From Sporomusa malonica (GTDB taxonomy: Bacteria > Bacillota > Negativicutes > Sporomusales > Sporomusaceae): a stretch of 64,000 nucleotides of DNA. Below the pieces are notes generated by a model, which saw only the letters and a program-made list of their open reading frames with translations, did no database searches and was not told the origin of the DNA. Location of the stretch: NCBI RefSeq assembly GCF_900176355.1, contig NZ_FWXI01000012.1:62001-126000 (forward strand). The letters run 5' to 3'. The position numbers were made by a program, and so were the translations under genes. Numbering within the stretch: the stretch's first letter is position 1; each line of letters opens with the position of its first letter. Below are positions 1,952 through 19,192 of the stretch, one piece after another.

Positions 1952-2241
1952 AGCGCGCCTCCCTCTCTTTAGAGCAATCATACTACACGCCAGATGATAA
2001 AAGCCTGTCAAATTCTGCTTTTATAAGATAGGCTTGCGCTGGTACACTTCTTAATAATGGACAATTTATCCTGCTTTTATATTCAACAGCCTGCTCCTAA
2101 TTTCCTATCAAGCAAATCTGTAAGCTGCTGCACCGAATAATCGGCTTAATCAACATAACAGTTTTACAAGCAAACAGCATTTAAAATCTTTTGCAAACGA
2201 ATTTTTGTCCTGACCAAATGGATTTGGACAAGACCAATCCT

Positions 2242-2272
2242 TTGACCATTTCAACCTCTGCTGGATTATAAT
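2242..2272 (+). promoter_or_regulatory. Possible sigma-A promoter for the permease gene
   Basis: TTGACC (2242-2247) and TATAAT (2267-2272) are separated by 19 bases, slightly longer than ideal, and lie 29 bases before the permease ATG. The rest of the 350-base divergent gap (1952-2300) shows no gene. Confidence 0.4.
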
Positions 2273-2300
2273 TAACTAAAATACAGAGAGGAGATATTTT

Positions 2301-3689
2301 ATGAAACCTGTTCAGAGTAATGACAACAATACCATTCTAAGTCAATTCGGCTATCAGCAAGAATTGAAAAGAACACTGAGCTTAAAAGATCTTACTATTT
2401 ATGGGATTATTTTTATGGCCCCCTTAGCGCCCATGCAAGTATATGGCATGGTGGCACAAGAAAGTATCGGAATGTCTTGTTTGGTATACCTCATTGGTGT
2501 TATTGCCATGTTATTTACTGCGTATAGCTATAGCCATATGTCTAAGGAGTTCCCAATCTCAGGATCTGTTTATTCCTATATACAGAGGGCTCTGAATCCC
2601 CATCTAGGCTTTATCGCTGGATGGATTATATTAGCTGATTATATCCTGGCGCCGGCCTTGCTGTATTTGATGACCAGTGTATGGATGACTGGAATATTTC
2701 CCAATATCCCCTCAGTCGTTTGGGCATTTGTATTTATCGCAATTAATACGCTGATTAATATCCGTGGAATAACCTTAACGGCAAAAACTAATTTAGTCAT
2801 GCTTTATATGCAATTAGCCACATTACTTGTACTGTTAATTATCGGGATTAAATATGTCTTTATCGACGGCAATGGCGCAGGCGGATTTACATTAGACCCG
2901 TTCTTCCGAGCCGATAACTTTAGTCCAGATCTCCTAGCAAAAGCGGCTTCCATTGCGGTTTTAGGCTTTTTGGGTTTTGATGGAATCAGCACCTTGTCGG
3001 AAGAAGCCAAAGATCCAACCAAAACAATTGGCAAAGCAACCATCTTATCAATTATTATTATCGGCATCCTGTTTATGTTTCAGGCTTACATAGCCCATTT
3101 AATTCATCCCGACTATCAAACGTTAAATCCGGAGATGGGATTTTTCGATCTGGCAAAAGAAGCAGGGGGAAGCGCTTTTTATGTACTGCTTATTATCATT
3201 AATGTGGTTGCAATCGGGATAGCCGTTAATTTAAACCTGCAAGCTGCCACATCCCGTATTTTATATTCCATGAGCCGTGACAACCTGTTACCTTTCTCCA
3301 GCCTGTTCAAGGAGATTCATCCCCAATACCAAACGCCGGTACGAGCTACCTTTTTATCTGCCGGCATTAGCGCAATCACAGTCTTAACACTGTCCATTGA
3401 AACGGTTTTAAGGTTTGTTAATTTTGGTGCAGTCACTTCCTTTATGCTCTTAAACCTTAGTGTATTCTTATACTTCTATGTAATAAAGAAAAAGCGCAGC
3501 GGCAAAGCACTGCTCTCTTATCTAATCATGCCGCTAATCGGTTTTCTGATTGTAGGTTATGTCTGGACCGGCTTTGATGAGACTACGTTCACGGCAGGGG
3601 CAGCATGGGTGGTCATCGGCATCATCATCGGTGCAGTAAAATCAAAGAGGTATAAAGAAGTCCCACCGTCATTAAAAGCTCTTGGTTAA
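2301..3689 (+). CDS. APC-superfamily amino acid permease
   Basis: A 462-residue integral membrane protein with about twelve hydrophobic segments. The N-terminal block (LKRTLSLKDLTIYGIIFMAP) and the GFDGISTLSEEAKDPTKTIGKA region are typical of APC/YhdG-like amino acid-polyamine-organocation transporters. GAGAGGAGA precedes the ATG at a good distance. The substrate cannot be read from sequence. The following SDR gene starts 29 bases after the stop, so the two are probably co-transcribed. Nearby rocA and rocD make ornithine, arginine or a related amine plausible, but that is inference. Confidence 0.88.
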   Translation: MKPVQSNDNNTILSQFGYQQELKRTLSLKDLTIYGIIFMAPLAPMQVYGMVAQESIGMSCLVYLIGVIAMLFTAYSYSHMSKEFPISGSVYSYIQRALNPHLGFIAGWIILADYILAPALLYLMTSVWMTGIFPNIPSVVWAFVFIAINTLINIRGITLTAKTNLVMLYMQLATLLVLLIIGIKYVFIDGNGAGGFTLDPFFRADNFSPDLLAKAASIAVLGFLGFDGISTLSEEAKDPTKTIGKATILSIIIIGILFMFQAYIAHLIHPDYQTLNPEMGFFDLAKEAGGSAFYVLLIIINVVAIGIAVNLNLQAATSRILYSMSRDNLLPFSSLFKEIHPQYQTPVRATFLSAGISAITVLTLSIETVLRFVNFGAVTSFMLLNLSVFLYFYVIKKKRSGKALLSYLIMPLIGFLIVGYVWTGFDETTFTAGAAWVVIGIIIGAVKSKRYKEVPPSLKALG

Positions 3690-3718
3690 ATAATTTATTA
3701 AAGGGGTTAAGGATTACT

Positions 3719-4477
3719 ATGCGATTGGAAGGAAAAACAGCGATTGTCACCGGAGCAGCTCAAGGTATTGGCGCAAGTACTGCCAAAAGATTTGCCCGTG
3801 AAGGGGCCAAAGTTGTAGTTGCTGATATCATGGATTCCGGAATAGATACCGTTTCAGAGATTTGTAGCCTTGGCGGTGATGCCCATTTTTTCCGGCTAGA
3901 TGTTTCCCATTCTGAACAAGTCCAAGATTTAATTAATTACACGATCGAAAAGTATGGTTCCCTCCATGTATTATGCAATAATGCCGCAGTAAATCTGCCA
4001 GGCACCGTAGAAGGTCTTACGGAAGAGATGTGGGACCGGACAATGAATGTCAATTTGAAATCAATGTACTTAACCTGTAAATATGGTATCCCTGAGATGA
4101 GAAAGGCAGGCGGCGGTTCTATTGTTAACGTAGGTTCTGCCAATAGTTTTGTTGCTGAAAAATTCTTGTCAGCCTATGTGGCTTCTAAAGGCGGCATTCT
4201 CATGCTCACTAAGGCAATTGCTTTAGATTATGCCAAAGAAAACATTCGAGCCAACTGCATCTGTCCTGGTTGGCTCAGCACCGGGTTTAACGATGCGCAT
4301 GCCGCACTGTTGGGTGGTCTTGACCATGTGCTCAGTGGTTTGGCTGATTTCCAACCAATTGGCCGCGCTATTGAACCCGAAGAGATTGCCAGTATAGCTT
4401 TGTTCTTGGCCTCTGATGAGTCATCGGCGATGACCGGCAGTGCTGTGGTTGCTGACGGTGGATTTTCGGCCCAATAG
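3719..4477 (+). CDS. Short-chain dehydrogenase/reductase (classical SDR)
   Basis: 252 residues, the normal size for a classical SDR. It has the TGAAQGIG cofactor loop at residues 11-18, an Asp at 36 after beta-2 favouring NAD(H), NNAA at 87-90, catalytic Ser140, and the YxxxK pair Tyr153/Lys157, followed by CPGW and a SAVVADGG end. It is therefore likely an active NAD-dependent oxidoreductase of the FabG/glucose-dehydrogenase-like group. The substrate is unknown. It forms an apparent operon with the upstream permease, suggesting that it oxidises the imported compound or a product of it. A strong terminator follows. Confidence 0.88.
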   Translation: MRLEGKTAIVTGAAQGIGASTAKRFAREGAKVVVADIMDSGIDTVSEICSLGGDAHFFRLDVSHSEQVQDLINYTIEKYGSLHVLCNNAAVNLPGTVEGLTEEMWDRTMNVNLKSMYLTCKYGIPEMRKAGGGSIVNVGSANSFVAEKFLSAYVASKGGILMLTKAIALDYAKENIRANCICPGWLSTGFNDAHAALLGGLDHVLSGLADFQPIGRAIEPEEIASIALFLASDESSAMTGSAVVADGGFSAQ

Positions 4478-4490
4478 TAAGATGAATAGA

Positions 4491-4528
4491 CAAAGCTGAT
4501 GTTGCCCCGCTGGGGTACATCAGCTTTG
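4491..4528. terminator. Bidirectional terminator
   Basis: Perfect 12-base arms (4491-4502 and 4517-4528) separate the SDR gene from the convergent response-regulator gene, whose stop lies 2 bases beyond. It probably serves both. Confidence 0.8.
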
Positions 4529-4529
4529 C

Positions 4530-5255
4530 CTATCTCTTTATTACATCATGCCAGTAGTTCACAATTTCCTGAACTATGTCTTCGGCAATTAGTGCAGTTC
4601 GCTTCTCATTAGCAAAATGAATTACATTGCCCTCAATGGAGTGAACTTGCTTCATATTGACCAAAAAAGACCGGTGAGTCAAATAAAAATAATGGCTTTC
4701 TAAGTATTTACAGTATACCCTTAAAGGAATTTTAGTTTCCAGTACAGCCGTTCTGGTATGAACGTAAATTGTGCGGTTGAGAGATTCGATGAACAGCACT
4801 TCTGAAGGGACTAATTGTTCAATATCCTGGCTAAATACAGGTATATACAAACCGCCATGCTGGACAAAGTTCTGATAATCGATGTGTTTACTTAATCTCT
4901 CCACTGCTTGTTTAAAGCGAAAGGGAGTAAATGGTTTTTCAACAATGTCGATGACTCCTAGATCGTAGGTATAGCTGGCTTCAGGAATCACGCCTGTGAC
5001 TAAAACAGCAGGAAGTTCCTTGCCGCGCAGACGTAGAGCAGCATAGCTTTCCAGCCCCCCTCGCCCTTTTCCTAGGTTAAGATCAAGCAGTAAGGCGTTA
5101 ATATTAGGAATTGTTGTGGCTTTATGAATTAATTCATCCCCATTTTTGACCATATCAACCACATGAACAAAATCAAAGGGCTTTAAATTCATTAACAGCA
5201 ATTCTTGTTGAAAAGGTTCGTCTTCAGCAATCAATAAATTAATTTGAGGCTGCAT
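4530..5255 (-). CDS. Response regulator with LytTR DNA-binding domain
   Basis: 241 residues. Residues 5-122 form a receiver domain with the acidic pair E11-D12, the phosphoacceptor Asp58 (LLLDLNLG) and Lys107 in VEKPF. Residues about 135-235 form a LytTR domain, with FIESLNRTIYVHT and the YFYLTHRSFLVNMKQV block. It is the partner of the sensor kinase whose gene ends 4 bases upstream. GGAGGG lies seven bases before the ATG. LytTR regulators bind paired imperfect repeats upstream of targets. I did not find convincing pairs here. In this setting it could control the flanking permease or rocD genes. Confidence 0.9.
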   Translation of the reverse strand: MQPQINLLIAEDEPFQQELLLMNLKPFDFVHVVDMVKNGDELIHKATTIPNINALLLDLNLGKGRGGLESYAALRLRGKELPAVLVTGVIPEASYTYDLGVIDIVEKPFTPFRFKQAVERLSKHIDYQNFVQHGGLYIPVFSQDIEQLVPSEVLFIESLNRTIYVHTRTAVLETKIPLRVYCKYLESHYFYLTHRSFLVNMKQVHSIEGNVIHFANEKRTALIAEDIVQEIVNYWHDVIKR

Positions 5256-5259
5256 CCTA

Positions 5260-6603
5260 TTACCCTCCTGTTATTATCGGTATGATGATGGAGATTTTGT
5301 TGATCTGATTCTGGGAAGTAAAAGAAATTTCACCATGAACCTGTTTGATAATTCCTTTGACAATATATAAACCCAATCCTCTTGTTTTATCACCACTTGG
5401 CTGCTTGGTAGTATAACCCTGATTAAATAGCAGCGACCTTGCAGTTTCAGAAATAGTGGGACCAGAATTTTCTACTTCAAAATAATAACTCGTTCGAAAA
5501 TTCTTGCCGGTAATTTTGATGTATCTTTCTTCTACAGGTAATTGGATCGTTGCCTCTATGGCATTATCCAGCAAATTTGAAAAGATCTTAATTAAATCTG
5601 TAGATTTTACCTGATCGAACAGGTCCTGAGCAAGCTCAAACTGCATCTCTATCTGTTTATTTTGAGCAACTACAAACTTTGACTGAAATAGCACCAGCAG
5701 GGCCGGGTTGTTTACTTTTAAAGACAAATCGACTAACTTTACTTCAGTAAACAAGGACTTCATATATTCCAGGGCTTTATCATAGTACCGGAACTCAATT
5801 AATCCGTATAATACCTGAATATGATTGACAAAATCGTGCCGTAGTGATTTGACAGAAGTCAGGAAAGAAAGAAATTCTTCCTGGTAGGTTTGTTCTGTAT
5901 CTCCTATCGCTTTTTTCATTTCAAGCTGATACCACTTCTGAATTATGAAAAAGGTAACCAACAGAATAAATGTAAAAATAACGTTGAAAAGAAAAGTAGA
6001 GTAGCTGTTGGTAACAACTTCTCTACTTATTTGTTTTACCAGTTCAGCACTCATGTCGATCCCTAAGTAACCCATAATTTGTCCATTATGGTCCTTAATC
6101 GGAGCCCCCACCGACAAATAATCTCCCATCTCAGGGTCATGTAGAATATCGGTATAATAGGTTCCACCTTGCAAGGCAAGTTTAATTTGGTCCTCAGGCA
6201 AGGTACAAAAACCTTCTATCGGGAATTGAATTGGGGAATTGGGGGTCGTACCATAAACCATTACCTTGCTAACCTGGGGATTGTCTACCAATAGGGTATA
6301 AACATACATGGCGCTTGTCTTCTTTTTTGCCTCATATAGATATGAACTGATTTTCCAATAGTCTTCGTTTACCTTTTTTCCTGTTAGAACGCGTTTATAG
6401 GTTTCTGTATCCAGGTCTTCTGCTATTGATTTGGCCATTTCGATACCTTGATTCGCGATGGCCACTTTTACTGAATTAATTGTCGAGTTATATGTAACAA
6501 GCAGATTCATTGAGGTTAATAGCAGTAAAATCAGAGTAGCTACAAGAATAATCGTCTTTACTTTTTTATTCTTCAGATAAGGAAGAGTTAATAGGTTCTT
6601 CAT
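5260..6603 (-). CDS. Membrane sensor histidine kinase (GHKL/SpoOB-like type)
   Basis: 447 residues. There is a TM segment at 17-37, an extracytoplasmic sensor of about 160 residues (Cache-like, with GDYLSVGAPIKD and GQIMGYLGIDM), and a second TM at about 203-222. The SpoOB-type phosphoacceptor helix LRHDFVNHIQ has His256. The ATPase domain has the N-box SNLLDNAIEA, followed by GLGLYIVKGI. The layout resembles DcuS/CitA-like and AgrC-like kinases that sense small extracellular ligands. It is upstream of, and co-transcribed with, the LytTR regulator. The ligand is not determinable from sequence. Confidence 0.88.
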   Translation of the reverse strand: MKNLLTLPYLKNKKVKTIILVATLILLLLTSMNLLVTYNSTINSVKVAIANQGIEMAKSIAEDLDTETYKRVLTGKKVNEDYWKISSYLYEAKKKTSAMYVYTLLVDNPQVSKVMVYGTTPNSPIQFPIEGFCTLPEDQIKLALQGGTYYTDILHDPEMGDYLSVGAPIKDHNGQIMGYLGIDMSAELVKQISREVVTNSYSTFLFNVIFTFILLVTFFIIQKWYQLEMKKAIGDTEQTYQEEFLSFLTSVKSLRHDFVNHIQVLYGLIEFRYYDKALEYMKSLFTEVKLVDLSLKVNNPALLVLFQSKFVVAQNKQIEMQFELAQDLFDQVKSTDLIKIFSNLLDNAIEATIQLPVEERYIKITGKNFRTSYYFEVENSGPTISETARSLLFNQGYTTKQPSGDKTRGLGLYIVKGIIKQVHGEISFTSQNQINKISIIIPIITGG

Positions 6604-6680
6604 AACTTTACCCCTCCAAGGTGTTTCCTACCCCTTATTATCTATAAAGCAGATTCATTGTCTGTAAGACGCTAGTTCTA

Positions 6681-6776
6681 ATAAAGAAAACACGGCTTGC
6701 GCCGAGCCTTTGGCGACAGCAGAAGCCGATGTTGCCCTTATCCAGGAAAAAGTTATACTTTCTATCAGGACAAAAA
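6681..6776 (+). repeat. Dispersed intergenic repeat, copy 1 (degenerate)
   Basis: A ~95-bp element starting ATAAAGAAAACACGGCTTGC and ending near CAGGACAAAA. Related copies are at 22641-22735 (+), 25304-25396 (-) and 31326-31415 (-). This copy has lost part of the second half (AGGAAAAAGTT in place of AGGCGGAAAGTT). Small internal hairpins are visible. It contains no coding frame. Confidence 0.85.
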
Positions 6777-6944
6777 AGCCCTCGAAAAAGAATGAAATCT
6801 TCTTCAGAGAGCCTCATTACTCAGAGAGTTAATTTATGTAAATATAACAAATATAATGTTTTTTGTCAAACAATCATCCATACAAACAGCCAATGCCGTC
6901 CACTTGTATTTCAACCATGCCACTCACAGTAGTCAGCCTGCTGA

Positions 6945-9407: not shown

Positions 9408-12113
9408 TCATTTAAAACATCTTCTGACGAATTTGGTCAACTCAGCAGTGATGAAGGGGATAGGAGCCAGTGCACCAATTACAAGCCAATCATTAAGTAC
9501 AGGCTGAACTGTTCTGAAAATTTCTTGTAAGGGGCTATAAACTGAAAGTACTAATAGAAAGAAGGAAAGGCCGACTCCCATATTCAGGTACCTATTACTG
9601 AAAAAGCCTAATTGGAATGCAGAATAATGTTCCGACCTGGCGGCGTAGGCGCAAATGATCTGGGTTGCCATCAACATGATAAATGCAAAAGTACGGGCAC
9701 TATCCAGATTACCGTTGTTAGCAGTCAGGCCGTATTGGAACGCGCAGAGTACGGTAATACTCATTACCAGACTCTGGATACCAGTCAGCACCTGCATATT
9801 CCCAGCGAGCAGGGGTTCGGACGGATCACGGGGCTTAAGACGCATAACATTGGGCTCTTTCTTCTCCATACCAAGGGCCAGAGCCGGAAAGCCATCTGTC
9901 ACCAGGTTTACCCACAGCAGTTGGGTAGGCAATAAGGGTATCGGCCATCCCAGCAGCATAGCGATGAAAATGGTCAGTACCTCTGAGGCATTACAGGAGA
10001 GGAGAAAATAGACAAATTTCCGGATGTTGGCGTAGATTACCCGTCCTTCTTCCACAGCCGACACAATTGTGGCGAAATTGTCATCCGTAATGACCATATC
10101 AGCGGTGGCTTTCGCCACATCTGTCCCGGTAATGCCCATGGCCACACCAATGTCTGCCTTTTTCAGCGCGGGCGCGTCATTGACACCGTCGCCAGTCATG
10201 GCAGTGATATAACCATTGTTTTGTAACGCGCTTATGATAGCCAGCTTATGCTCTGGAGACACGCGGGCAAAGACACTGGACGTGCGTACTTGTTGCTGTA
10301 ATTGCTCCAGAGGCATGGTATCTAGCGCCTGTCCGGTAATAACCGGCTGATCTTTAGTGGCAATGCCAAGATCTTTGGCGATAGCAAGGGCGGTGGTCGG
10401 ATGATCGCCAGTAATCATTATCGTCCGTATTCCCGCTTGCAGACAAACCTGTACAGCTGCTTTGGCTTCACTGCGGGGCGGGTCAATCATACCGACAAGA
10501 CCGATCATCACCAAGTCTTTCTCCACCTCGCCGGGACTAGAAATGTCAGGCACCTGCTCAAAATCCCGGTAAGCGACAGCCAAAACCCGCAACGCTTGTG
10601 ACGCCATTTCCTGATTGGCTGCACGTACTGCCTGTTTATCTATCTCGGTCAAAGAGCGGACTGTTCCCTTCTCAATAATGTGGGTACACCGGCTCAACAA
10701 GATGTCCGGGGCCCCCTTAGAAAAAGCCCGAATTTTTTCAGCTGTATAGTGGAAGGTAGTCATCATCTTGCGACCTGAATCAAAAGGAATCTCCTGCAAA
10801 CGCGGAGCCAGAGACGTCACAGCTTCCTTGATATACCCCCCTTTGGCGGCAGCGACCACAAGCGCCCCCTCGGTCGGATCACCTACAATAGACCAAATCT
10901 GATCATCCAGAGACTTCAATTCTGCATCATTACATAAAAGAGACGCTCGCAGCAGCAGGTCCAGTTCCTGCTTAGTATCTATTTTGACCGGCTTTTCACC
11001 GGCAATAAATTCGCCTTCCGGATTATATCCATGGCCACTGACAGTAAACAGGTCAGAAGCAGTGAAGACTTTGACAACCGTCATCTGATTTTGAGTCAAG
11101 GTTCCAGTCTTATCAGTGCAGATGACAGATACGCTGCCTAAGGTTTCGACCGCGTGCAGTTTCTTCATAATAGAGTTCTTCCGGGCCATACGCTGCATGC
11201 CAAAAGCCAATACGATGGCTACAACCGCAGGAAGGCCTTCCGGAATAGCGGCAACTGCCAGACTAATAGAGATCATGAGCATATGTTGAATCTCTGACAA
11301 TGATAATATGCCGTCACTATACCCGCCGTAAATTCCCATGGCGAACACTACAGCGCAGACACCTATACAAAGCAGACCCAATGTTTTGCCAAATTCTTCA
11401 AGCTTTATTTGCAGGGGAGTGGGCTCTTGCTCAACAGACTGAAGCATACCGGCAATTTTTCCAATTTCAGTTTGCATGGCTGTAGCCACGACAATTCCCT
11501 TACCCCGGCCATAAGTGACGATGGTGCCCATGAATGCCATGTTATTCTGTTCGGCCAAGGGAGTAATCTGGCTAAGTTCCTGGGAGTTTTTATCCACTGG
11601 TACTGATTCACCTGTTAGTGAGGCTTCCTCAATTTTTAGATTGAATGATTCTAGAATACGTACATCGGCAGGAACATAATCTCCCGCCTCCAATACCACC
11701 ATATCACCTTGAACCAACTCTCTGGAGGGAACAACAACAAGATTCCCATCGCGAATCAGTTTAGAAGTAGCCGCACTCATTCTTTTGAGCGCAGCCAATG
11801 CTTTTTCTGCCTTCGATTCTTGAAAAACACCAAGCGCGGCGTTAAGGATTACAATAGCGATGATAACCAGAGCATCGGCCGATTCCCCGACAAGAAGAGA
11901 GATTACACTGGCAGCCAGGAGAATTAGTACTAGGAAGTTCTTAAATTGGTTGAGCAGCTTTTGCCAGAAACCTTCCGGTTTTTTTTCCTGTAACTCATTA
12001 TAACCATATTGGACTAGCCGCCTGGAGGCCTCTGCTGAAGATAAGCCTTTTGATGATTCGGATTCAAATTCAGAAACTGTTTCCTCTACACTCATCTGGT
12101 ACCACGATTTCAT
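9408..12113 (-). CDS. P-type calcium-transporting ATPase
   Basis: 901 residues, the normal length of bacterial SERCA/PMR1-like pumps. An N-terminal cation-ATPase domain is followed by TGES (A-domain), PEGLPA (TM4), the phosphorylation motif DKTGTLT, TGDGVNDAPALKKADIG (hinge) and ten predicted TM segments. Ion-binding residues typical of Ca2+ pumps are present: Glu in PEGLPA, Asn and Glu in SCNASEV (TM5), and Asn/Thr/Asp in NLVTDG (TM6). It should export Ca2+ (or Mn2+) from the cytoplasm. A universal-stress-protein gene lies upstream, but a hairpin separates them. A decayed paralogue is at 42.6 kb. Confidence 0.93.
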   Translation of the reverse strand: MKSWYQMSVEETVSEFESESSKGLSSAEASRRLVQYGYNELQEKKPEGFWQKLLNQFKNFLVLILLAASVISLLVGESADALVIIAIVILNAALGVFQESKAEKALAALKRMSAATSKLIRDGNLVVVPSRELVQGDMVVLEAGDYVPADVRILESFNLKIEEASLTGESVPVDKNSQELSQITPLAEQNNMAFMGTIVTYGRGKGIVVATAMQTEIGKIAGMLQSVEQEPTPLQIKLEEFGKTLGLLCIGVCAVVFAMGIYGGYSDGILSLSEIQHMLMISISLAVAAIPEGLPAVVAIVLAFGMQRMARKNSIMKKLHAVETLGSVSVICTDKTGTLTQNQMTVVKVFTASDLFTVSGHGYNPEGEFIAGEKPVKIDTKQELDLLLRASLLCNDAELKSLDDQIWSIVGDPTEGALVVAAAKGGYIKEAVTSLAPRLQEIPFDSGRKMMTTFHYTAEKIRAFSKGAPDILLSRCTHIIEKGTVRSLTEIDKQAVRAANQEMASQALRVLAVAYRDFEQVPDISSPGEVEKDLVMIGLVGMIDPPRSEAKAAVQVCLQAGIRTIMITGDHPTTALAIAKDLGIATKDQPVITGQALDTMPLEQLQQQVRTSSVFARVSPEHKLAIISALQNNGYITAMTGDGVNDAPALKKADIGVAMGITGTDVAKATADMVITDDNFATIVSAVEEGRVIYANIRKFVYFLLSCNASEVLTIFIAMLLGWPIPLLPTQLLWVNLVTDGFPALALGMEKKEPNVMRLKPRDPSEPLLAGNMQVLTGIQSLVMSITVLCAFQYGLTANNGNLDSARTFAFIMLMATQIICAYAARSEHYSAFQLGFFSNRYLNMGVGLSFFLLVLSVYSPLQEIFRTVQPVLNDWLVIGALAPIPFITAELTKFVRRCFK

Positions 12114-12837: not shown

Positions 12838-13176
12838 TTAAAGCGCTGCTTTCCTATTTCGCGCCAAAGTCGAATATTTATCGTAAATCACACGCAGAGC
12901 AGACATAATTGGTTTTTTGGCACTCCCATGGTAAACTGCATCAATACTCTTTACTAATTCCTCAATACCGTTTTGCATGCTATTCCCCGCTAAGATACGC
13001 GTCACGAACCGTTCTGAGGTTGACGTAGACAAGGTGCAGTCTGCTTCCACAATTTTTCCTGTTTCCATATCAATTAACACAACCAAAGCCATTACTTTAT
13101 ACACCTCACTTGATGCAGTACCTGCAGGCAGCCTGGCATAGCCGGAAAATAAAAAAATATTTTCATTTACTTTCAT
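12838..13176 (-). CDS. DUF3870 family protein
   Basis: A 112-residue cytoplasmic protein matching my recollection of the DUF3870 family: it starts with FLFSGYARLP, continues with YKVMALVVLIDMETGKIVEADCTL, and ends with ALRVIYDKYSTL. The function is unknown. The Asp-Cys pair and the LIDxxTGxIxxADC stretch look conserved. AGGAGG lies nine bases before the ATG. It is the next gene downstream of the MIO-less lyase on the same strand, separated by a hairpin at 13222-13256. Family members often sit beside amino-acid catabolic genes, so a role in the same pathway is possible but unproven. Confidence 0.75.
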   Translation of the reverse strand: MKVNENIFLFSGYARLPAGTASSEVYKVMALVVLIDMETGKIVEADCTLSTSTSERFVTRILAGNSMQNGIEELVKSIDAVYHGSAKKPIMSALRVIYDKYSTLARNRKAAL

Positions 13177-13221
13177 TTGTTAATTCCTCCTGTAAAATTG
13201 ATTGTACTATTGAATAAGCTA

Positions 13222-13256
13222 AGGGACAGCTTGGAATAACATTCCACTCTGTCCCT
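13222..13256 (-). terminator. Hairpin between lyase and DUF3870 gene
   Basis: A two-tier stem: AGGGACAG/CTGTCCCT outside and TGGAAT/ATTCCA inside with a 3-base loop. The T-run on the minus strand is weak, so it may be a partial terminator or an mRNA processing hairpin lowering DUF3870 expression. Confidence 0.5.
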
Positions 13257-13415
13257 GTTTCACTCTAATCAAATTCTTATTCCACACCAAACCAAACTCT
13301 TAACACTCTTAGTTCAAAAGCTAATGTAAGCTTTCGTTTGCTTTCACTCTGTCTCTATTATCACCATTCTATCTGATTCTACAAAATCCGTCAAGAACCC
13401 TGCGGCTAACCGGGC

Positions 13416-14966
13416 TTATAATAATGTTCCAATCTTCTCTTCAGCCAACCCAACTACCCTTTGTGAATGAATTAGGTTTTTTATAGTATTAATATGAGGA
13501 TACAGATAGATATCCTCATTCATGATTGGCACAGTAAGGGCAATTTCCTCCAGAATAGCTTGGACGGCAGTCGCCGGCAATTTATCACCTTCCATGAATT
13601 GGTGAGCTTGATATACAGATAACAATTCAATCGCCAGAATAAACTCCAGTTTTTCGACAATTTGCCTGGCTTTTTTGGCAGCATTATAGCCCATCGCCAC
13701 ATAATCTTCCTGATTCCCACAGGTTGGTATCCCATCAATTGTTGCAGGATGTGACAAGATCTTCATGTCATTCAACAAGCCTGCCTGTGTATACTGTGGT
13801 ATCATTAACCCGGAATTGAGACCAGGCTTTTTGATAAGAAACCAGGGGTATCCGGAGAGATTTCCGTCTACCAGGCGGTTATTCCTGCGCTCCGACATTT
13901 TAGCAAGTACGGTAGCGGCAATACACGCTGAGTCCATCTCAATCCCTACATAGGATGAATCCGCGTTACAGCCGGAGATAGCTTCGCCATCATCCCCTTC
14001 TGGCCAAAGAATTGGGTTATCACAGCAGGAATTCATTTCTATTTCAATGGTTTTTAACGCATCTTTCAAAGTTTTCTTGGCAGCACCATGCAGCTGCGGT
14101 ATACAGCGAATCGACAATGCATCCTGCAAGCGGTAATCGCGATAATGCACCGCAATCTCCGAATCTTTCAATACATTTCTTACATTAGCTGCTGTGCTGC
14201 GCTGATCTTCGTGAGGACGGACGCTCATCAGCCGTTCATCAAACGCACGCGTAGTTCCTTTTAGTATTTCCAGGGTCATCGCGCCGATGATATCCGCGCA
14301 CTTTGCAGCGTTTAACATGTCATATAGAGCAAGAGAACCGAGCGCGGTAACGCTAGTAGTTCCGGAAACCAGGACTAAACCTTCCTTGGCTGACAGTTCT
14401 GTCGGCGTAAGGCCAACCCGTCGCAGTGCTTCTCCGGCCGGCAGCAGTTCGCCTGCTACATAAGCTTGCCCTTCACCAATCAGGACTAACGCCATATGAG
14501 CTTCCGGACTAAGATAGCCTACTGAACCCTCTTTGGGGGCAAACGGTGTAAGACCAAGATTAAGAAATTGCCGGTACAACTCTACCGTTTCCATACGTGC
14601 ACCGCAAAAACCCTGGCCTACATTTTGCAATATCATAAAAATCGTTGCCCGCACTTCTTCAATGGACAAAGGCTCTCCCACCGAAGTGGCATGTGACAAC
14701 ACGATATTTCTTTGTAATTGTGCCGTTTCCTTGGGTGATATTACCTCCGTACAGAGTGCCCCAAAACCGGTAGTAATACCGTACATCACCCGGCCCTCAC
14801 CAATCCATTTTTCCACCAAGCTCCTGGATTTTTTCACCCGCTCACAATACGCATCAGAGAATTCTACCTTGGCACCATAACGGGCAACCGCCACCAATTC
14901 TTCAATGGTCACCTGGCCGCCAAGAACTACTGTTGCCCTATTATCGATATTTGTTTTTTCTACCAT
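13416..14966 (-). CDS. Histidine ammonia-lyase homologue lacking the MIO triad (candidate ergothionase)
   Basis: 516 residues of the aromatic amino acid lyase superfamily: YGITTGFGALC, QRNIVLSHATSVGEPL, a GTTSVTALGSLAL region, and a long helical C-terminus with GNQEDYVAMGYNAA. In true HutH the segment after GSVG is ASGDLAPLAHM, whose Ala-Ser-Gly cyclises to the MIO electrophile. Here residues 147-158 read GSVGYLSPEAHM, three residues shorter and without Ala-Ser-Gly. MIO-based ammonia elimination is therefore unlikely. From memory, ergothionase (trimethylamine elimination from ergothioneine, giving thiourocanate) is a MIO-less member of this superfamily. A good leaving group needs no electrophile. 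The BCCT transporter 62 bases upstream imports quaternary amines, which fits. AGGAGG precedes the ATG. The fold is certain; the substrate is inference. Confidence 0.8.
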   Translation of the reverse strand: MVEKTNIDNRATVVLGGQVTIEELVAVARYGAKVEFSDAYCERVKKSRSLVEKWIGEGRVMYGITTGFGALCTEVISPKETAQLQRNIVLSHATSVGEPLSIEEVRATIFMILQNVGQGFCGARMETVELYRQFLNLGLTPFAPKEGSVGYLSPEAHMALVLIGEGQAYVAGELLPAGEALRRVGLTPTELSAKEGLVLVSGTTSVTALGSLALYDMLNAAKCADIIGAMTLEILKGTTRAFDERLMSVRPHEDQRSTAANVRNVLKDSEIAVHYRDYRLQDALSIRCIPQLHGAAKKTLKDALKTIEIEMNSCCDNPILWPEGDDGEAISGCNADSSYVGIEMDSACIAATVLAKMSERRNNRLVDGNLSGYPWFLIKKPGLNSGLMIPQYTQAGLLNDMKILSHPATIDGIPTCGNQEDYVAMGYNAAKKARQIVEKLEFILAIELLSVYQAHQFMEGDKLPATAVQAILEEIALTVPIMNEDIYLYPHINTIKNLIHSQRVVGLAEEKIGTLL

Positions 14967-15028
14967 GACTACTGCCTCCTAGTGAAGGGGAAAAGCGCTC
15001 TGGCCTTTCCCCTCCCATAATGCTAATC

Positions 15029-16570
15029 CTATTCGTCAACTTTATCAATGAAAAACACTTTAATTGCAGAGAACACCTGCAGCACAAAGATAAACAATAC
15101 CATAAACCCACCTGCAGCCGCCAGAAATTTAACACCGTCAACCCCCTGGGCACCGCCGGCATACGCCACCATGAAGAAAGAAATAGCTCCAATTGAGATG
15201 CCCCAGAGGCATTTTTGCCACAATGGCGGTTCTTCATCGTGTTTGGAGTCTTTCATGCAGATAGAGGCAATAGTGGTAGTCATTGCGTCAGCGGCAGTGG
15301 CAAAGGAGATAATAAGGGTGACCATGACCGCTGGTATAAGCAGAAAGCTTAGTGGTAAATTAGCCAGGAAGGTCCATAATCCGGCTACTGCACCGCTTGC
15401 TTTTATCGTAGCGATCAAGTCTACTGTCCCCTTCATCTGCCAGTCAAGTGCTGTCGAGCCCCAGATCCCAAACCAGACAAGGCCAAAAATGGAAGGTAGT
15501 ATCCAGTTGATGATCATAAATTCACGGATGGTTCGGCCATAAGAAATCATTGCAAGAAAGATCCCCATAAGTGGTGCATAAGCAATCCAGATGGCCCAGT
15601 CATATAATGTCCACCACATGACCAGCGCTTCGCCACCGATATCAGCCGGGTCAAGGCCCCACTGCCAAAAATTTTGCAGCCAATACGCCATGCTGGCTAC
15701 TGAGTTCCGACAAATGTACAGCGTAGGTCCAACGATCAACAGAACTGCCAAAATTACATAGAATATTTTAGAATTAAAATCAGCAAGCCACTTAATCCCT
15801 TTATCTACCCCTAATACTGACGCTATTGTGAAGGTTGCTGTCGTCACCGCTGCCAGCGCCAGCCATACCATCGGCCCCTGCTTGATCCCGTAAGATAGTT
15901 CAAAACCAGAGGCTACCAACGCAATCCCCGCACCAAGGGAAGATGCCAGGCCCAGTGCAATAGCCAGCAGGGAAAGTGTATCAATAACGTTTGGCCAGAT
16001 TCCTTTTGTTACCTTTTCACCAAACAAGGGTATCAACGTAGCCGTTACTGACAACGTTTTCTTCTTATTGAAGTACATGTAAGCAACAAGTAATCCACAT
16101 AAAGAATACATAGCATATGGTATAAAAGTCCAGTTGTAGAAACAACGGGCAATCGCATAAATCGCTGCCATTGGGGTTCCGGGGGCTACACCAGTCTGAG
16201 CCATTTCTCCGTATATGTTACCAAAATATATAACCGGCTCATTTGCCCCATAGGTGATTACCCCGGTAGCAATACCACCAGTCAGCGCCATGGCAAACCA
16301 GGTCATGAAAGGATACTTGGGCTTGGCGTCTGCTCCCCCTAAACGGATGCTGCCAAACTTGGAGAACGTAACAAGGCTCACAACAATCAATGCTACAATT
16401 GCAATTACCTGATATAACCAACCGAAGGTCCTCAGTGACCACAAGAAAGAATTCATCGCCACATCAGTCAGCAGCTTATTATTTACAATGCCTAATAATG
16501 CAGCTCCACCCACTACCAGAAAAGCTGGCCAAAAAACGCCATTACGTATTTTCTTTGTTTCTACCGACAT
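15029..16570 (-). CDS. BCCT-family quaternary amine transporter
   Basis: 513 residues with about twelve TM segments. The BCCT signature is clear: WWTLYDWAIWIAYAPLMG, then FLAMISYGRTIREF in the central helix, and a glycine-rich GGIATGVITYGANEPV stretch. The aromatic residues of the signature helix line the trimethylammonium-binding box in BetP/CaiT. The family imports or exchanges betaine, choline, carnitine or related compounds. N- and C-terminal osmosensor tails are short, favouring a catabolic role over osmoregulation. It is first in the operon after the sigma-54 promoter at 16681-16697, with the MIO-less lyase next. Ergothioneine or another histidine betaine is my proposed substrate. Confidence 0.9.
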   Translation of the reverse strand: MSVETKKIRNGVFWPAFLVVGGAALLGIVNNKLLTDVAMNSFLWSLRTFGWLYQVIAIVALIVVSLVTFSKFGSIRLGGADAKPKYPFMTWFAMALTGGIATGVITYGANEPVIYFGNIYGEMAQTGVAPGTPMAAIYAIARCFYNWTFIPYAMYSLCGLLVAYMYFNKKKTLSVTATLIPLFGEKVTKGIWPNVIDTLSLLAIALGLASSLGAGIALVASGFELSYGIKQGPMVWLALAAVTTATFTIASVLGVDKGIKWLADFNSKIFYVILAVLLIVGPTLYICRNSVASMAYWLQNFWQWGLDPADIGGEALVMWWTLYDWAIWIAYAPLMGIFLAMISYGRTIREFMIINWILPSIFGLVWFGIWGSTALDWQMKGTVDLIATIKASGAVAGLWTFLANLPLSFLLIPAVMVTLIISFATAADAMTTTIASICMKDSKHDEEPPLWQKCLWGISIGAISFFMVAYAGGAQGVDGVKFLAAAGGFMVLFIFVLQVFSAIKVFFIDKVDE

Positions 16571-16680
16571 TTAATATCCTCCCTTGCTGTTTTTTACGCA
16601 TATTAGTCTGTCCTCAAAAAGGTTACTGAATTTCACCTCCATTTTGATTTTCTCAAGGACCTATTCTACAAAAATACTAA

Positions 16681-16697
16681 TGCAAAACTTATGCCAA
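16681..16697 (-). promoter_or_regulatory. Sigma-54 promoter (-24/-12) of the BCCT-lyase operon
   Basis: On the minus strand the sequence reads TTGGCATAAGTTTTGCA. GG and GC are exactly ten bases apart, matching the TGGCAY-N5-TTGCW consensus. Transcription would start near 16670, about 100 bases before the BCCT ATG. The gene of a sigma-54 activator begins the adjoining upstream unit. Confidence 0.85.
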
Positions 16698-16929: not shown

Positions 16930-16950
16930 GACGCCAAATTATTTGGCGTC
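16930..16950 (-). terminator. Terminator of the sigma-54 activator gene
   Basis: A nine-base perfect stem (GACGCCAAA with its complement, 4-base loop) 20 bases after the activator stop, with a T-run following on the minus strand. The remainder of the 16571-16970 gap holds the sigma-54 promoter and presumably the activator binding sites. I could not identify the latter. Confidence 0.8.
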
Positions 16951-16970: not shown

Positions 16971-18623
16971 CTACTCTTCACAAAATCCACATTTCTTCAT
17001 TCGATACTGCAGACTTTGCCTGCTCATCCCCAATACCTTGGCCGTCTGGGTAATATTCCCGGAGTTCTCATCCAGGGTCTGACGTATTAATGAGTATTCA
17101 AACCGTTCCACACGTTCATCAAACGACCCGGTGTCTCCTACTGCCATTAGTTTTGTGCGTTCTCCTTGATGCTTGCTACAAGTTACACGCTCTAAGGGCC
17201 TTAAATAATCTGGCAGGCAATCAAGCGTGATCGTACTCACGTCATCTGCAGCACGGTTAAAGGCATATTCGATTACATGGTGAAGTTCTCTTACGTTGCC
17301 TGGCCACTCGTATTGTTGAAAGGCATTAAGTACCTCTGCTGCAATAGTAAGTTGTTCCCGATTATATTGCGCACACAATTCCTGGAGAAAATTTCGCGCC
17401 AGGAGAATTATATCTTGATCTCGATCCTTTAACGCGGGAAGATCAATCTTGATGGTAGAGATCCGGTAATAAAAATCCATACGGATTTTTTGCTGTTGCA
17501 TAAGAGCAGCAAGGTTCTCATTCGCTGCAGAAATGATCCGCACATCACATTGTATATATCTACTGCCGCCGATACGTTGAAAACGTTTTTCCTGCAATAC
17601 CCTTAAAAGCTTAGCCTGTATCTCCGGACTAATGGAATTGACTTCGTCCAGAAAAATCGTCCCACCATTCGCCATCTCAAAAAGTCCAGCCTTGCTAACA
17701 CTGCCGGTAAAAGCACCCTTTTCAGTGCCAAAAAACATGCTCTCAAACAGATTGCCAGGCACAGCACTGCAATTCACATCAATAAACGGCTTATATCTTC
17801 TGGCGCTAAACGAGTGTATACTCTGTGCCACAAGCTCTTTTCCGGTTCCGGTAGCTCCCACAATCAGTATTGCTGAATCTGTAAGAGAAACCTTTTTGGC
17901 AAAATGAATAATATCTTGCATACTCTCGGCTTCATGTACGATATCATCAAAGGTGTACATGGCCGATTGACCCACTGGTTCTGTATTGCCAATATATGCT
18001 TCCAGGTTGAAAGTACGGTTTTTGAGCCGCTTTAATACAGATAGATCACTTTCAAAAACAACAGCTCCATACAAATTGTTGTCAATTATCAAAGGATAGC
18101 CAGAGTTAATTGTAGTTAACGTCGTGCCGTTTTTCATCTTGAAGCGGTCACAGCGGTTTGCAACCGGCTTTTTTGTTCTTAAAATTGTCAAAACTGTGCT
18201 GTACTCTTCGTTTACATCGTAAATATCAAGCAGATGCTTTCCCATGTAATCAAGGCTGTTATACCCCTCCAGGGCCTCGCTTGCGGAATTGGCAAACAAA
18301 AAATTCCCATTACGGTCATATATTTGAACGCCTTCTGCCATATGTCCAAAGATCTGCTTATAAAAATCAAGCAATACTCCGTCACTGCTTAAATATAACA
18401 CTCTTCCATCAGGCTCGGTTACACACTGATATCGAAAGAACTTATTGCTAAGCTCAACAATGCCATGATCTTTTAGGGAAGCCCCCAATACATGGTCGAT
18501 TTGCTGATCTATCAAGCTGGTACAAATATTATCTTCAAACAACGCAGGATTTTCCCCAACCCGCTGCACTGCCTTTATACGAAGTTCAGCGTCGAGTTTA
18601 ATGATCAAATCAAGCACAGCCAT
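16971..18623 (-). CDS. Sigma-54-dependent activator (PAS-AAA+-Fis)
   Basis: 550 residues. Residues 1-85 are an unassigned N-terminal domain. A PAS domain lies at about 86-195 (MAEGVQIYDRNGNFLFANSA). The AAA+ domain spans about 225-465, with Walker A GATGTGKE at 256-263, the sigma-54-contact loop GAFTGS at 303-308 (consensus GAFTGA), and Walker B GTIFLDEV. A Fis-type HTH ends the chain (QTAKVLGMSRQSLQYRMKK). The RocR-like layout suggests ligand-responsive activation. It lies directly upstream of the sigma-54 promoter of the BCCT-lyase operon, which is its likely target. The start is ATG with GGAGG four bases upstream. The XRE-cupin gene ends 14 bases before it. Confidence 0.92.
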   Translation of the reverse strand: MAVLDLIIKLDAELRIKAVQRVGENPALFEDNICTSLIDQQIDHVLGASLKDHGIVELSNKFFRYQCVTEPDGRVLYLSSDGVLLDFYKQIFGHMAEGVQIYDRNGNFLFANSASEALEGYNSLDYMGKHLLDIYDVNEEYSTVLTILRTKKPVANRCDRFKMKNGTTLTTINSGYPLIIDNNLYGAVVFESDLSVLKRLKNRTFNLEAYIGNTEPVGQSAMYTFDDIVHEAESMQDIIHFAKKVSLTDSAILIVGATGTGKELVAQSIHSFSARRYKPFIDVNCSAVPGNLFESMFFGTEKGAFTGSVSKAGLFEMANGGTIFLDEVNSISPEIQAKLLRVLQEKRFQRIGGSRYIQCDVRIISAANENLAALMQQQKIRMDFYYRISTIKIDLPALKDRDQDIILLARNFLQELCAQYNREQLTIAAEVLNAFQQYEWPGNVRELHHVIEYAFNRAADDVSTITLDCLPDYLRPLERVTCSKHQGERTKLMAVGDTGSFDERVERFEYSLIRQTLDENSGNITQTAKVLGMSRQSLQYRMKKCGFCEE

Positions 18624-18637
18624 TAAACCTCCATTTT

Positions 18638-19192
18638 TTACAGTGAGTAATAAATAACCATACTTAATCGTGTCAGTTCAACACCGGGGTTATGATATGT
18701 ATGGCACTTGTCTGCCCGGAACGTTATTGAGTCACCTTTATGGACTGTATACTCCTTTTCGTTTGTCAGCACAGTTAATTCGCCATCAACAACGGTAATA
18801 AACTCCTGTGTTTTCTCACCATGAGTATCTGTGCGCAAATGTCCGTCTGGCTCTATCTCTACTATGTACATTTCAAAACGGCGACCATCTTCATAAGGAA
18901 ATACTGGATACACTCTATATTTACCATTATCCTCAATGAGAGGTTCAACTTCGGACTTGTGCACAATCATTGCGTCGTCTTGAGGTGAATTAATCAGCGA
19001 TGTAAAAGAGACTTTTAACCCAATGGCAATTTTCCAGATGGTGTTGATTGTTGGACTGGATTCCCCTCGCTCAATCTGCCCCAGCATAGATTTACTAACA
19101 CCTGTAATATCGGCAACTTTTTCAAGGCTTAATTTCTTTTCCTCGCGAATTCGTTTCAAATTACTGGCGATTATCAAGTTTAAATCTTTCAA
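18638..19192 (-). CDS. XRE-family regulator with C-terminal cupin domain
   Basis: 184 residues. The helix-turn-helix domain is at 8-65 (LEKVADITGVSKSMLGQIERGESSPTI, split here as LEKVADITGVSKS and MLGQIERGESSP). The single cupin domain is at about 110-180 (HGEKTQEFITVVDGEL, then HKGDSITFRADKCHTYHN). Such proteins sense small molecules, often amino acids or amines. The start is TTG 19192 with GAGGGGG seven bases upstream. It is co-transcribed with the sigma-54 activator (14-base gap) and divergent from azlCD. It could repress either or both; no operator is clear in the 164-base divergent gap. Confidence 0.88.
   Translation of the reverse strand: MKDLNLIIASNLKRIREEKKLSLEKVADITGVSKSMLGQIERGESSPTINTIWKIAIGLKVSFTSLINSPQDDAMIVHKSEVEPLIEDNGKYRVYPVFPYEDGRRFEMYIVEIEPDGHLRTDTHGEKTQEFITVVDGELTVLTNEKEYTVHKGDSITFRADKCHTYHNPGVELTRLSMVIYYSL

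Follow-up and report, generated by a model that had tools for sequence, protein, structure and literature searches.

What reaction is catalyzed by a member of the histidine ammonia-lyase (HAL; HutH) family that has lost the residues from which the electrophile of the family is made, and that is encoded beside a BCCT transporter, is the question raised by a locus of Sporomusa malonica. The window analyzed here is a 64,000-nucleotide stretch (assembly GCF_900176355.1, contig NZ_FWXI01000012.1, positions 62,001 to 126,000 of the forward strand), and the genome containing it (G000) comprises 5.19 Mb in 66 contigs, with a contamination estimate of 6.11. The range 13416-16697 of the window covers the lyase gene, the BCCT gene and, at its upper end, a sigma-54-like site. 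A preliminary description proposed that transporter and lyase import and cleave a histidine betaine, either ergothioneine or hercynine. The removal of trimethylamine is the part of that proposal that is likely to hold, with hercynine as the favored substrate, and the ergothioneine part is disfavored. Our best reading, which we consider likely, is that the lyase is a hercynine trimethylamine-lyase providing a second entry to the histidine utilization (Hut) pathway. The loop deletion, the clade, the gene partners, the sigma-54-like site and the residue pattern described below are computed observations.

A HutH-family lyase without the MIO triad

The lyase open reading frame (ORF) includes PKEGSVGYLSPEAHMALVL, and its loop, GSVGYLSPEAHM, aligns as GSVG-Y---LSPEAHM, in which the Ala-Ser-Gly triad that makes the 4-methylideneimidazole-5-one (MIO) group is gone. 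In the numbering of Pseudomonas putida HutH, which is used for residues unless a window position is given, Ala142 is replaced by Tyr and residues 143-145 are deleted. The deletion is present in 100 of the 149 distinct lyases aligned and at 84/84 primary loci, the window being one of them, which rules out a sequencing error. The rest of the fold is intact in the predicted structure, in agreement with the preliminary description: the protein matches Pfam Lyase_aromatic with E 6e-162, its AlphaFold2 model has a mean predicted local distance difference test score of 91.8, and in a Foldseek search with this model P. putida HutH ranks first (template modeling score, TM, 0.92) and the solved ergothionase 6s7j ranks 19th (TM 0.88). 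Along with the aromatic amino acid lyase fold, the window lyase has the HutH hallmark residues Tyr53, His83, Gln277, Arg283, and Glu414.

Compared with solved proteins, the window lyase scores 298 bits with the nearest HutH enzymes and 152 bits with ergothionase. The NCBIfam model TIGR01225 (hutH) gives 502.1, below its cut-off of 539.15, and the NCBI model PRK09367 gives 522.8 against a cut-off of 524. Judged by its sequence, the protein fails the definition of HutH by its triad and lies outside the ergothionase branch. Deamination of free histidine in the absence of MIO, or a role as an inactive or regulatory paralogue of HutH, is the least probable of the readings considered here: the PRK09367 score just under its cut-off and the annotation of a plasmid-borne relative from Deltaproteobacterium Smac51 as histidine ammonia-lyase point that way, whereas a study of Geobacillus HAL describes the MIO group derived from Ala-Ser-Gly as the electrophile of the ammonia-lyase reaction (PMC11432326), and the same genomes hold a separate HutH-level lyase. 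A dead enzyme is disfavored because the catalytic residues are invariant over 100 sequences.

Triad-deleted lyases form a branch of their own

The best 80 loci among 149 relatives found in a scan of genome contigs were retained, and these together with the window, L032, L037, and L038 make up the 84 primary loci. The taxa among the loci retained include Sporomusa, Pectinatus, Acidaminococcus, Clostridium, Geosporobacter, Natroniella, and many Bacillaceae, as well as gut Lachnospiraceae and Oscillospiraceae, two Acinetobacter strains (four loci), one Deltaproteobacterium, and others. These relatives are widespread and, as far as found in the open-licence literature searched, uncharacterized. 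The alignment consists of two PDB chains and 161 lyases taken from the fetched loci after the exclusion of four partial sequences; 149 of the 163 are distinct, with 100 triad-deleted (Y--), 35 with Ala-Ser-Gly (ASG), and 14 of the ergothionase type, including 6s7j.

In the FastTree phylogeny the 100 triad-deleted lyases, the window's included, group on a single branch and the 14 ergothionase-type lyases on a second one, each with support 1.0. Both branches recur in a 57-row subsample with the loop columns removed (93/97 for the triad-deleted branch and 100/100 for the ergothionase branch) and in a 61-row subsample with outgroups (98/96 and 100/100), and the window protein is outside the 100/100 branch that holds the solved ergothionase. 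In approximately unbiased (AU) tests with the loop columns left out, neither a topology that holds both MIO-less kinds together (p 0.49, or p 0.39 with outgroups) nor one that groups the triad-deleted type with HutH (p 0.27) is rejected; long branches are present in the trees, and the four outgroup rows failed to group. Two independent losses of MIO, at which the first tree hinted, were dropped as a firm claim because the AU tests do not reject a single MIO-less clade, and as far as the sequences indicate the trees allow loss once or twice. A wider version of the favored reading, in which a hercynine lyase is widespread in Firmicutes, from Sporomusa, Clostridium, Bacillaceae, and Acidaminococcus to gut Lachnospiraceae and Oscillospiraceae, and is also present in Acinetobacter, as a second Hut entry and lost MIO independently of ergothionase, with convergence at positions 280 and 330, is tentative and falls somewhat short of being probable.

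Residues of the active site

All 100 triad-deleted lyases have Tyr53, Gln277, Arg283, Met382, Tyr386, and Glu414, and 98 retain His83. Replacements are concentrated elsewhere: Ala142 is Tyr, residues 143-145 are deleted and His330 is Asp in 100/100, Leu149 is Glu in 99, Tyr280 is Leu or Met in 97, Phe329 is Ala, Pro, Cys, or Ser in 97, and Asn195 is Ser in 80. In the 14 ergothionase-type lyases, position 280 is Leu in 13 and position 330 is Glu or Asp in 13, position 382 is always occupied by Gly, Ala, Ser, or Cys, and position 386 is Lys in 11. The window lyase does not show this ergothionase pattern, having Met388 at the position of 382 and Tyr392 at that of 386. We take Lys386 and Gly382 of the ergothionases to be linked to the thione of ergothioneine.

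For Geobacillus HAL, the same study reports that Y52, H82, N194, and E411 (here 53, 83, 195, and 414) are essential, ties Asn, Gln, and Arg to the ammonium and carboxylate groups, connects the cationic intermediate with Phe325 (329), and describes a Met conserved in the bacterial HALs that it covers (PMC11432326). Set beside these assignments, the sequences suggest that the positions serving the amino group and the MIO intermediate are altered and that most of those serving the imidazole and the carboxylate are kept. An altered amino-group and MIO side, together with a kept imidazole side, would fit a plain imidazole with a bulky quaternary amine, which describes hercynine.

In the proposed pathway hercynine (N-alpha,N,N,N-trimethylhistidine) would enter the cell through the BCCT protein, the MIO-less lyase would catalyze beta-elimination of trimethylamine with release of urocanate, and the ordinary Hut enzymes (hutU, hutI, ftcD/fchA or hutG) would convert urocanate to glutamate. 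The MIO electrophile may be dispensable because trimethylammonium is already a good leaving group. The retained HutH residues Tyr53, His83, Gln277, Arg283, Met382, and Glu414 would handle the imidazole, the carboxylate and proton transfer, while window residues Tyr151 (in place of MIO), Ala335 (for Phe329), and Asp336 (for His330) could form an acidic, aromatic pocket for the trimethylammonium group. Substrate, product, pocket geometry, mechanism and inducer are what we infer from the alignments and gene partners.

Another imidazole or aromatic betaine as substrate, such as ergothioneine sulfonate, tyrosine betaine or tryptophan betaine, is highly improbable, although the clade includes paralogues with different residues and, going by the titles in the reference list of one paper (PMC13405746), catabolic pathways have been published for both ergothioneine and ergothioneine sulfonate. 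The HutH-like His83, Met382, and Glu414 are retained, which argues against such a substrate, as do the downstream hutG or ftcD/fchA genes found at some loci, which suit formiminoglutamate derived from plain urocanate.

The BCCT partner

The lyase gene follows the end of the BCCT gene by 62 bp, and the pairing noted in the preliminary description recurs across the clade. At 60/84 lyase loci versus 0/24 canonical hutH loci, the same strand carries a BCCT gene no more than 300 bp away, and one is found within 8 kb at 66/84 versus 0/24 (Fisher p 5e-11, which is indicative only, as rows share ancestry). The 24 controls all come from Negativicutes, the class of the window: 20 represent one genome per genus, from 20 of the 27 genera with a match (g1, g3, g4, g15, g25, g41, and g53 excluded), and the other four (L188, L190, L191, and L194) belong to the family of the window. 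The flank is shorter than 8 kb on a side at 32/84 primary loci and 6/24 controls, and the loci themselves supplied the sequences for the profiles of neighboring genes. Full flanks are available at 52 loci, 44 of which have a BCCT gene nearby and 18 of which have both hutU and hutI. In Bacillaceae, seven loci with a canonical hutH (L225-L231, all ASG) likewise have no BCCT gene in stretches of 8-17 kb. Where BCCT is missing, five of the 84 loci have a sodium:solute symporter (SSS) gene instead and 13 have neither. At three Sporomusa loci (L065-L067), an ORF of about 180 amino acids (cluster c24, family unassigned) sits after the SSS gene and before the MIO-less lyase.

The window BCCT protein exceeds the cut-off of Pfam PF02028 (372.7 bits, E 3e-111) and scores 302 of 650 with the NCBIfam glycine betaine model and 210 of 541 with that for carnitine/butyrobetaine. 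Since it is far under both cut-offs, another substrate is plausible. BCCT carriers are known mostly for quaternary ammonium compounds, which speaks against N-alpha-dimethylhistidine or N-alpha-monomethylhistidine as the substrate, cleaved to urocanate and dimethylamine or methylamine. The product would be identical, so that Hut partners would fit equally, and sequence says nothing on the number of methyl groups; secondary and tertiary amines leave less readily without MIO, as a matter of general chemistry, and a less methylated histidine is on balance distinctly improbable.

Hut genes beside the MIO-less lyase

Both hutU and hutI are present in the fetched stretch at 20/84 loci, many of them with hutG or ftcD/fchA. 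In the Bacillaceae loci L098, L104, L105, and L108 the gene order is AraC-type regulator, BCCT, lyase, hutU, hutI, hutG. The genomes of L098, L104, and L108 have two hutU copies each, one behind a canonical ASG HutH (L225-L227) and one behind the MIO-less lyase, and in the five genomes compared the paired hutU copies share 68-76% identity; in the genomes of L105 and L093 the sole hutU adjoins the MIO-less lyase. At the Sporomusa loci L065 and L067, the lyase is followed by a regulator and then by hutU-hutI-ftcD-fchA, and at L066 hutU is directly behind the lyase. The product is most likely urocanate, because enzymes acting on formiminoglutamate make sense behind plain urocanate.

Relation to ergothionase

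The genome of the window encodes three lyases: the one in the window, a canonical ASG HutH on contig C27, and one on contig C34 with the loop GSIGEADIACLSH. The C34 lyase scores 466 bits with 6s7j against the 152 bits of the window lyase. At its locus (L186, ORFs 2043-6807, minus strand) this ergothionase-type lyase has its own BCCT gene and genes for the FAD and Fe-S subunits of a molybdenum (Mo) hydroxylase, and these genes adjoin the single hutU-hutI-ftcD-fchA cluster of the genome. A second kind of ergothionase, converting ergothioneine to thiourocanate and trimethylamine, is an improbable identity for the window enzyme. Both kinds are MIO-less and near BCCT genes, an ergothionase-type gene lies within 8 kb at 8/84 loci, and the trees are compatible with one MIO-less clade, all of which would suit it. 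Each kind nevertheless forms its own branch, Met382 and Tyr386 of HutH are present in 100/100 members of the window clade, and the enzymes encoded beside the lyase in Bacillaceae closely resemble those of ordinary urocanate breakdown; ten Bacillaceae genomes (G383-G392) have no ergothionase-level match, as judged by score only. The ergothioneine part of the preliminary description is weakened by the position of the lyase outside the ergothionase clade, the lack of the 382/386 pattern, and the presence elsewhere in the genome of an ergothionase-type gene paired with another BCCT gene. The window enzyme probably works like an ergothionase, by MIO-less elimination of trimethylamine, though off that branch.

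Five of seven ergothionase-adjacent BCCT proteins, among which those of L127 and L150 come from the same gene, fall in an eight-member group with support 0.997 that also contains the BCCT proteins of L037, L141, and L192. The window BCCT protein is outside this group; its identity is 69.2% with the BCCT protein of L098 and 54.5% with the ergothionase-linked one of its own genome.

Mo-hydroxylase genes are near in six of the eight loci that have an ergothionase-type gene. The large-subunit gene is found within 8 kb of a window-type lyase, with an ergothionase-type gene also there, at L087, L127, L131, L135, L138, and L037; it is also present at three loci without an ergothionase-type gene (L072, L093, and L134) and at 0/24 hutH controls. 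The Mo-hydroxylase is a candidate for acting on the imidazole ring of thiourocanate, which bears sulfur.

Observations that weigh against a hercynine lyase

Several observations weigh against the favored reading of the lyase as a putative hercynine lyase. Its closest solved relatives in sequence are HutH enzymes that depend on MIO and act on free histidine, which corresponds in part to what the preliminary description had named as refuting its proposal; it does not decide the matter, because these relatives are MIO enzymes. In two of the 100 triad-deleted lyases His83 is Asp, and the changes at Asn195 and Phe329 are not universal. There is no BCCT gene inside 8 kb at 18/84 loci, and two ergothionase-adjacent BCCT proteins, from L038 and L087, do not belong to the ergothionase-linked group.

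The Hut link is weaker in Sporomusa. No hut genes are present at the window locus, and the single hutU of the genome is on C34 beside the ergothionase-type gene, so that in Sporomusa the hut genes neighbor both kinds of lyase. A complete canonical HutH is encoded at four of the 20 loci with hutU and hutI (L082, L083, L115, and L133), L092 has a HutH cut by the edge of the stretch, and L066 has a HutH tail at its edge, so that the hut genes may serve HutH in those six; the other 14 show no HutH in the stretch, and all 20 genomes have a HutH-level match, by score. At 64/84 loci there is no hutU and hutI pair (a flank below 8 kb on a side affects 32/84), and the case for urocanate as the product therefore comes from Bacillaceae, Sporomusa, Acinetobacter, Acidaminococcus and some gut Firmicutes, few in number.

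Regulation and other features of the locus

The features of the locus are given in Table 1. The TGGCATAAGTTTTGCA site is one mismatch from the -24/-12 consensus, and if two mismatches are allowed, 43 such matches occur in the whole window versus 37 expected, so that a single site alone means little. Over the clade, a -24/-12 site is found upstream of the unit at 30/37 loci with an adjacent sigma-54 activator and at 8/47 without one, the background being 0.11 per stretch. The activator and the site probably control the unit, and the BCCT and lyase genes may form a separate transcript, given the hairpin and T run behind the activator gene.

Table 1. Features of the lyase locus in window coordinates.
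Feature	Coordinates	Strand	Basis
DUF3870 protein, 3' of lyase	12838..13176	-	Pfam E 7e-27
MIO-less HutH-family lyase, 516 aa, proposed hercynine trimethylamine-lyase	13416..14966	-	Pfam, alignment, tree, AlphaFold2
Loop GSVGYLSPEAH, codons 147-157, at the MIO-forming Ala-Ser-Gly site of HutH; here Tyr151 and three residues deleted	14496..14528	-	
BCCT transporter, 513 aa, proposed betaine uptake system	15029..16570	-	Pfam
Sigma-54 (-24/-12) promoter-like site TGGCATAAGTTTTGCA, upstream of BCCT gene	16681..16696	-	
Terminator-like hairpin and T run, 3' of activator gene	16930..16950	-	terminator scan
PAS/sigma-54 activator, 550 aa, probable dedicated regulator	16971..18623	-	
HTH-cupin regulator, role uncertain; homologue at same position in one congener (L032)	18638..19192	-	

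The DUF3870 protein, which the preliminary description had put forward as a candidate member of the pathway, does not keep that place: it is near the lyase in the window and at one of the other 83 loci, where the match is weak (26.8 bits), and a pathway role was rejected on this count of 2/84. Between the lyase and DUF3870 genes, an inverted repeat, GGGACAG...CTGTCCC, was seen by eye at 13220-13260 (minus strand); it is absent from the output of the terminator scan, and it may terminate the lyase transcript ahead of DUF3870.

The trimethylamine released could be consumed in the same cell. Ten matches to the MttB family are present in the genome, along with two PylS-like genes that score over the cut-off. 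One MttB-family gene (L164, C27:410963-412372) has an in-frame TAG after 335 residues, likely encoding pyrrolysine, in a gene context that we take to resemble that of pyrrolysine MttB. The MttB gene at C27:253374 was rejected as a pyrrolysine enzyme, its ORF being open for 480 residues, and the L164 copy is the better candidate.

Other triad-less relatives

Three lyases, at L125 (7713-9287), L155 (10076-11719), and L156 (7475-9073), have the loop GSVGYLGVEG, in which the triad is lost, and keep Tyr280, Phe329, and Asn195; this subfamily probably acts on another substrate. In S. acidovorans (L034, 12262-13839) a second triad-less paralogue (GSVGYLQPGAHM) is clustered with hutH, a window-type lyase and hut genes. 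The lyases of L233 and L234 (genomes G103 and G105), with GSLGVGDLQPMAH, have no Ala-Ser-Gly triad and are outside both MIO-less branches, and that of L193 (G010, 9809-11371), with the loop GSVGDSDIGPLA, is on a deep branch beside the ergothionases and keeps Asn195 and His330. A search of viral contigs for relatives of the lyase found none. Among plasmids there are 141 records at E <=1e-100, all below 60% identity to the lyase, and of the 15 records listed 14 are annotated as histidine ammonia-lyase. The Smac51 plasmid (L236, CP026659.1) encodes at 2483-4057 a lyase so annotated, with the loop GSVGYLAVEGH and 48.1% identity, which adjoins a sodium:solute symporter gene.

Significance and comparison with known systems

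Hercynine is made by producers of ergothioneine, such as fungi, actinobacteria and cyanobacteria. The clade supplies candidate users of histidine betaine and a testable gene pair, and it could be a further microbial source of trimethylamine, gut members included, that a search by similarity to ergothionase would not single out. If the favored reading is true, this would be a second kind of enzyme using the fold of the MIO lyases without MIO and with a quaternary amine as the leaving group. In the open-licence literature, no hercynine lyase appears by title or abstract start among the matches listed, and BCCT is not mentioned together with histidine ammonia-lyase. Hercynine and urocan- are mentioned together in three papers, in one of which the urocan- match refers to ergothionase in a synthesis assay (PMC9103826). 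In a biocrust study, histidine betaine vanished from soil water although no isolate of that study used it, which its authors read as pointing to other microbial users (PMC4595634).

Compared with HutH (P. putida 1b8f/1eb4 and Trypanosoma cruzi 6v6h), the window lyase shares the fold and the imidazole, carboxylate and acid-base residues and is 41-43% identical to HutH-level matches in its own family, whereas it has no MIO triad, has Tyr280, Phe329, and His330 replaced, and has a BCCT partner, seen in 0/24 HutH controls. With the ergothionase of Treponema denticola (6s7j) it has in common the lack of MIO, the superfamily, and BCCT neighbors, along with Leu for Tyr280 and an acidic residue at 330 in most members of both kinds, but ergothionase is on a separate branch, has the loop SSIGEGDI, and carries a Gly382/Lys386 pattern that is missing in the window clade. 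The transporter shares the Pfam BCCT domain with the betaine/choline/carnitine carriers and misses the NCBIfam subfamily cut-offs. In the case of the Hut operon, hutU and hutI are near the MIO-less lyase at 20/84 loci, as they would be near HutH, whereas at L098, L104, L105, and L108 the MIO-less enzyme takes the place of HutH, the transporter and regulator differ, and the hut genes of the window genome are on another contig.

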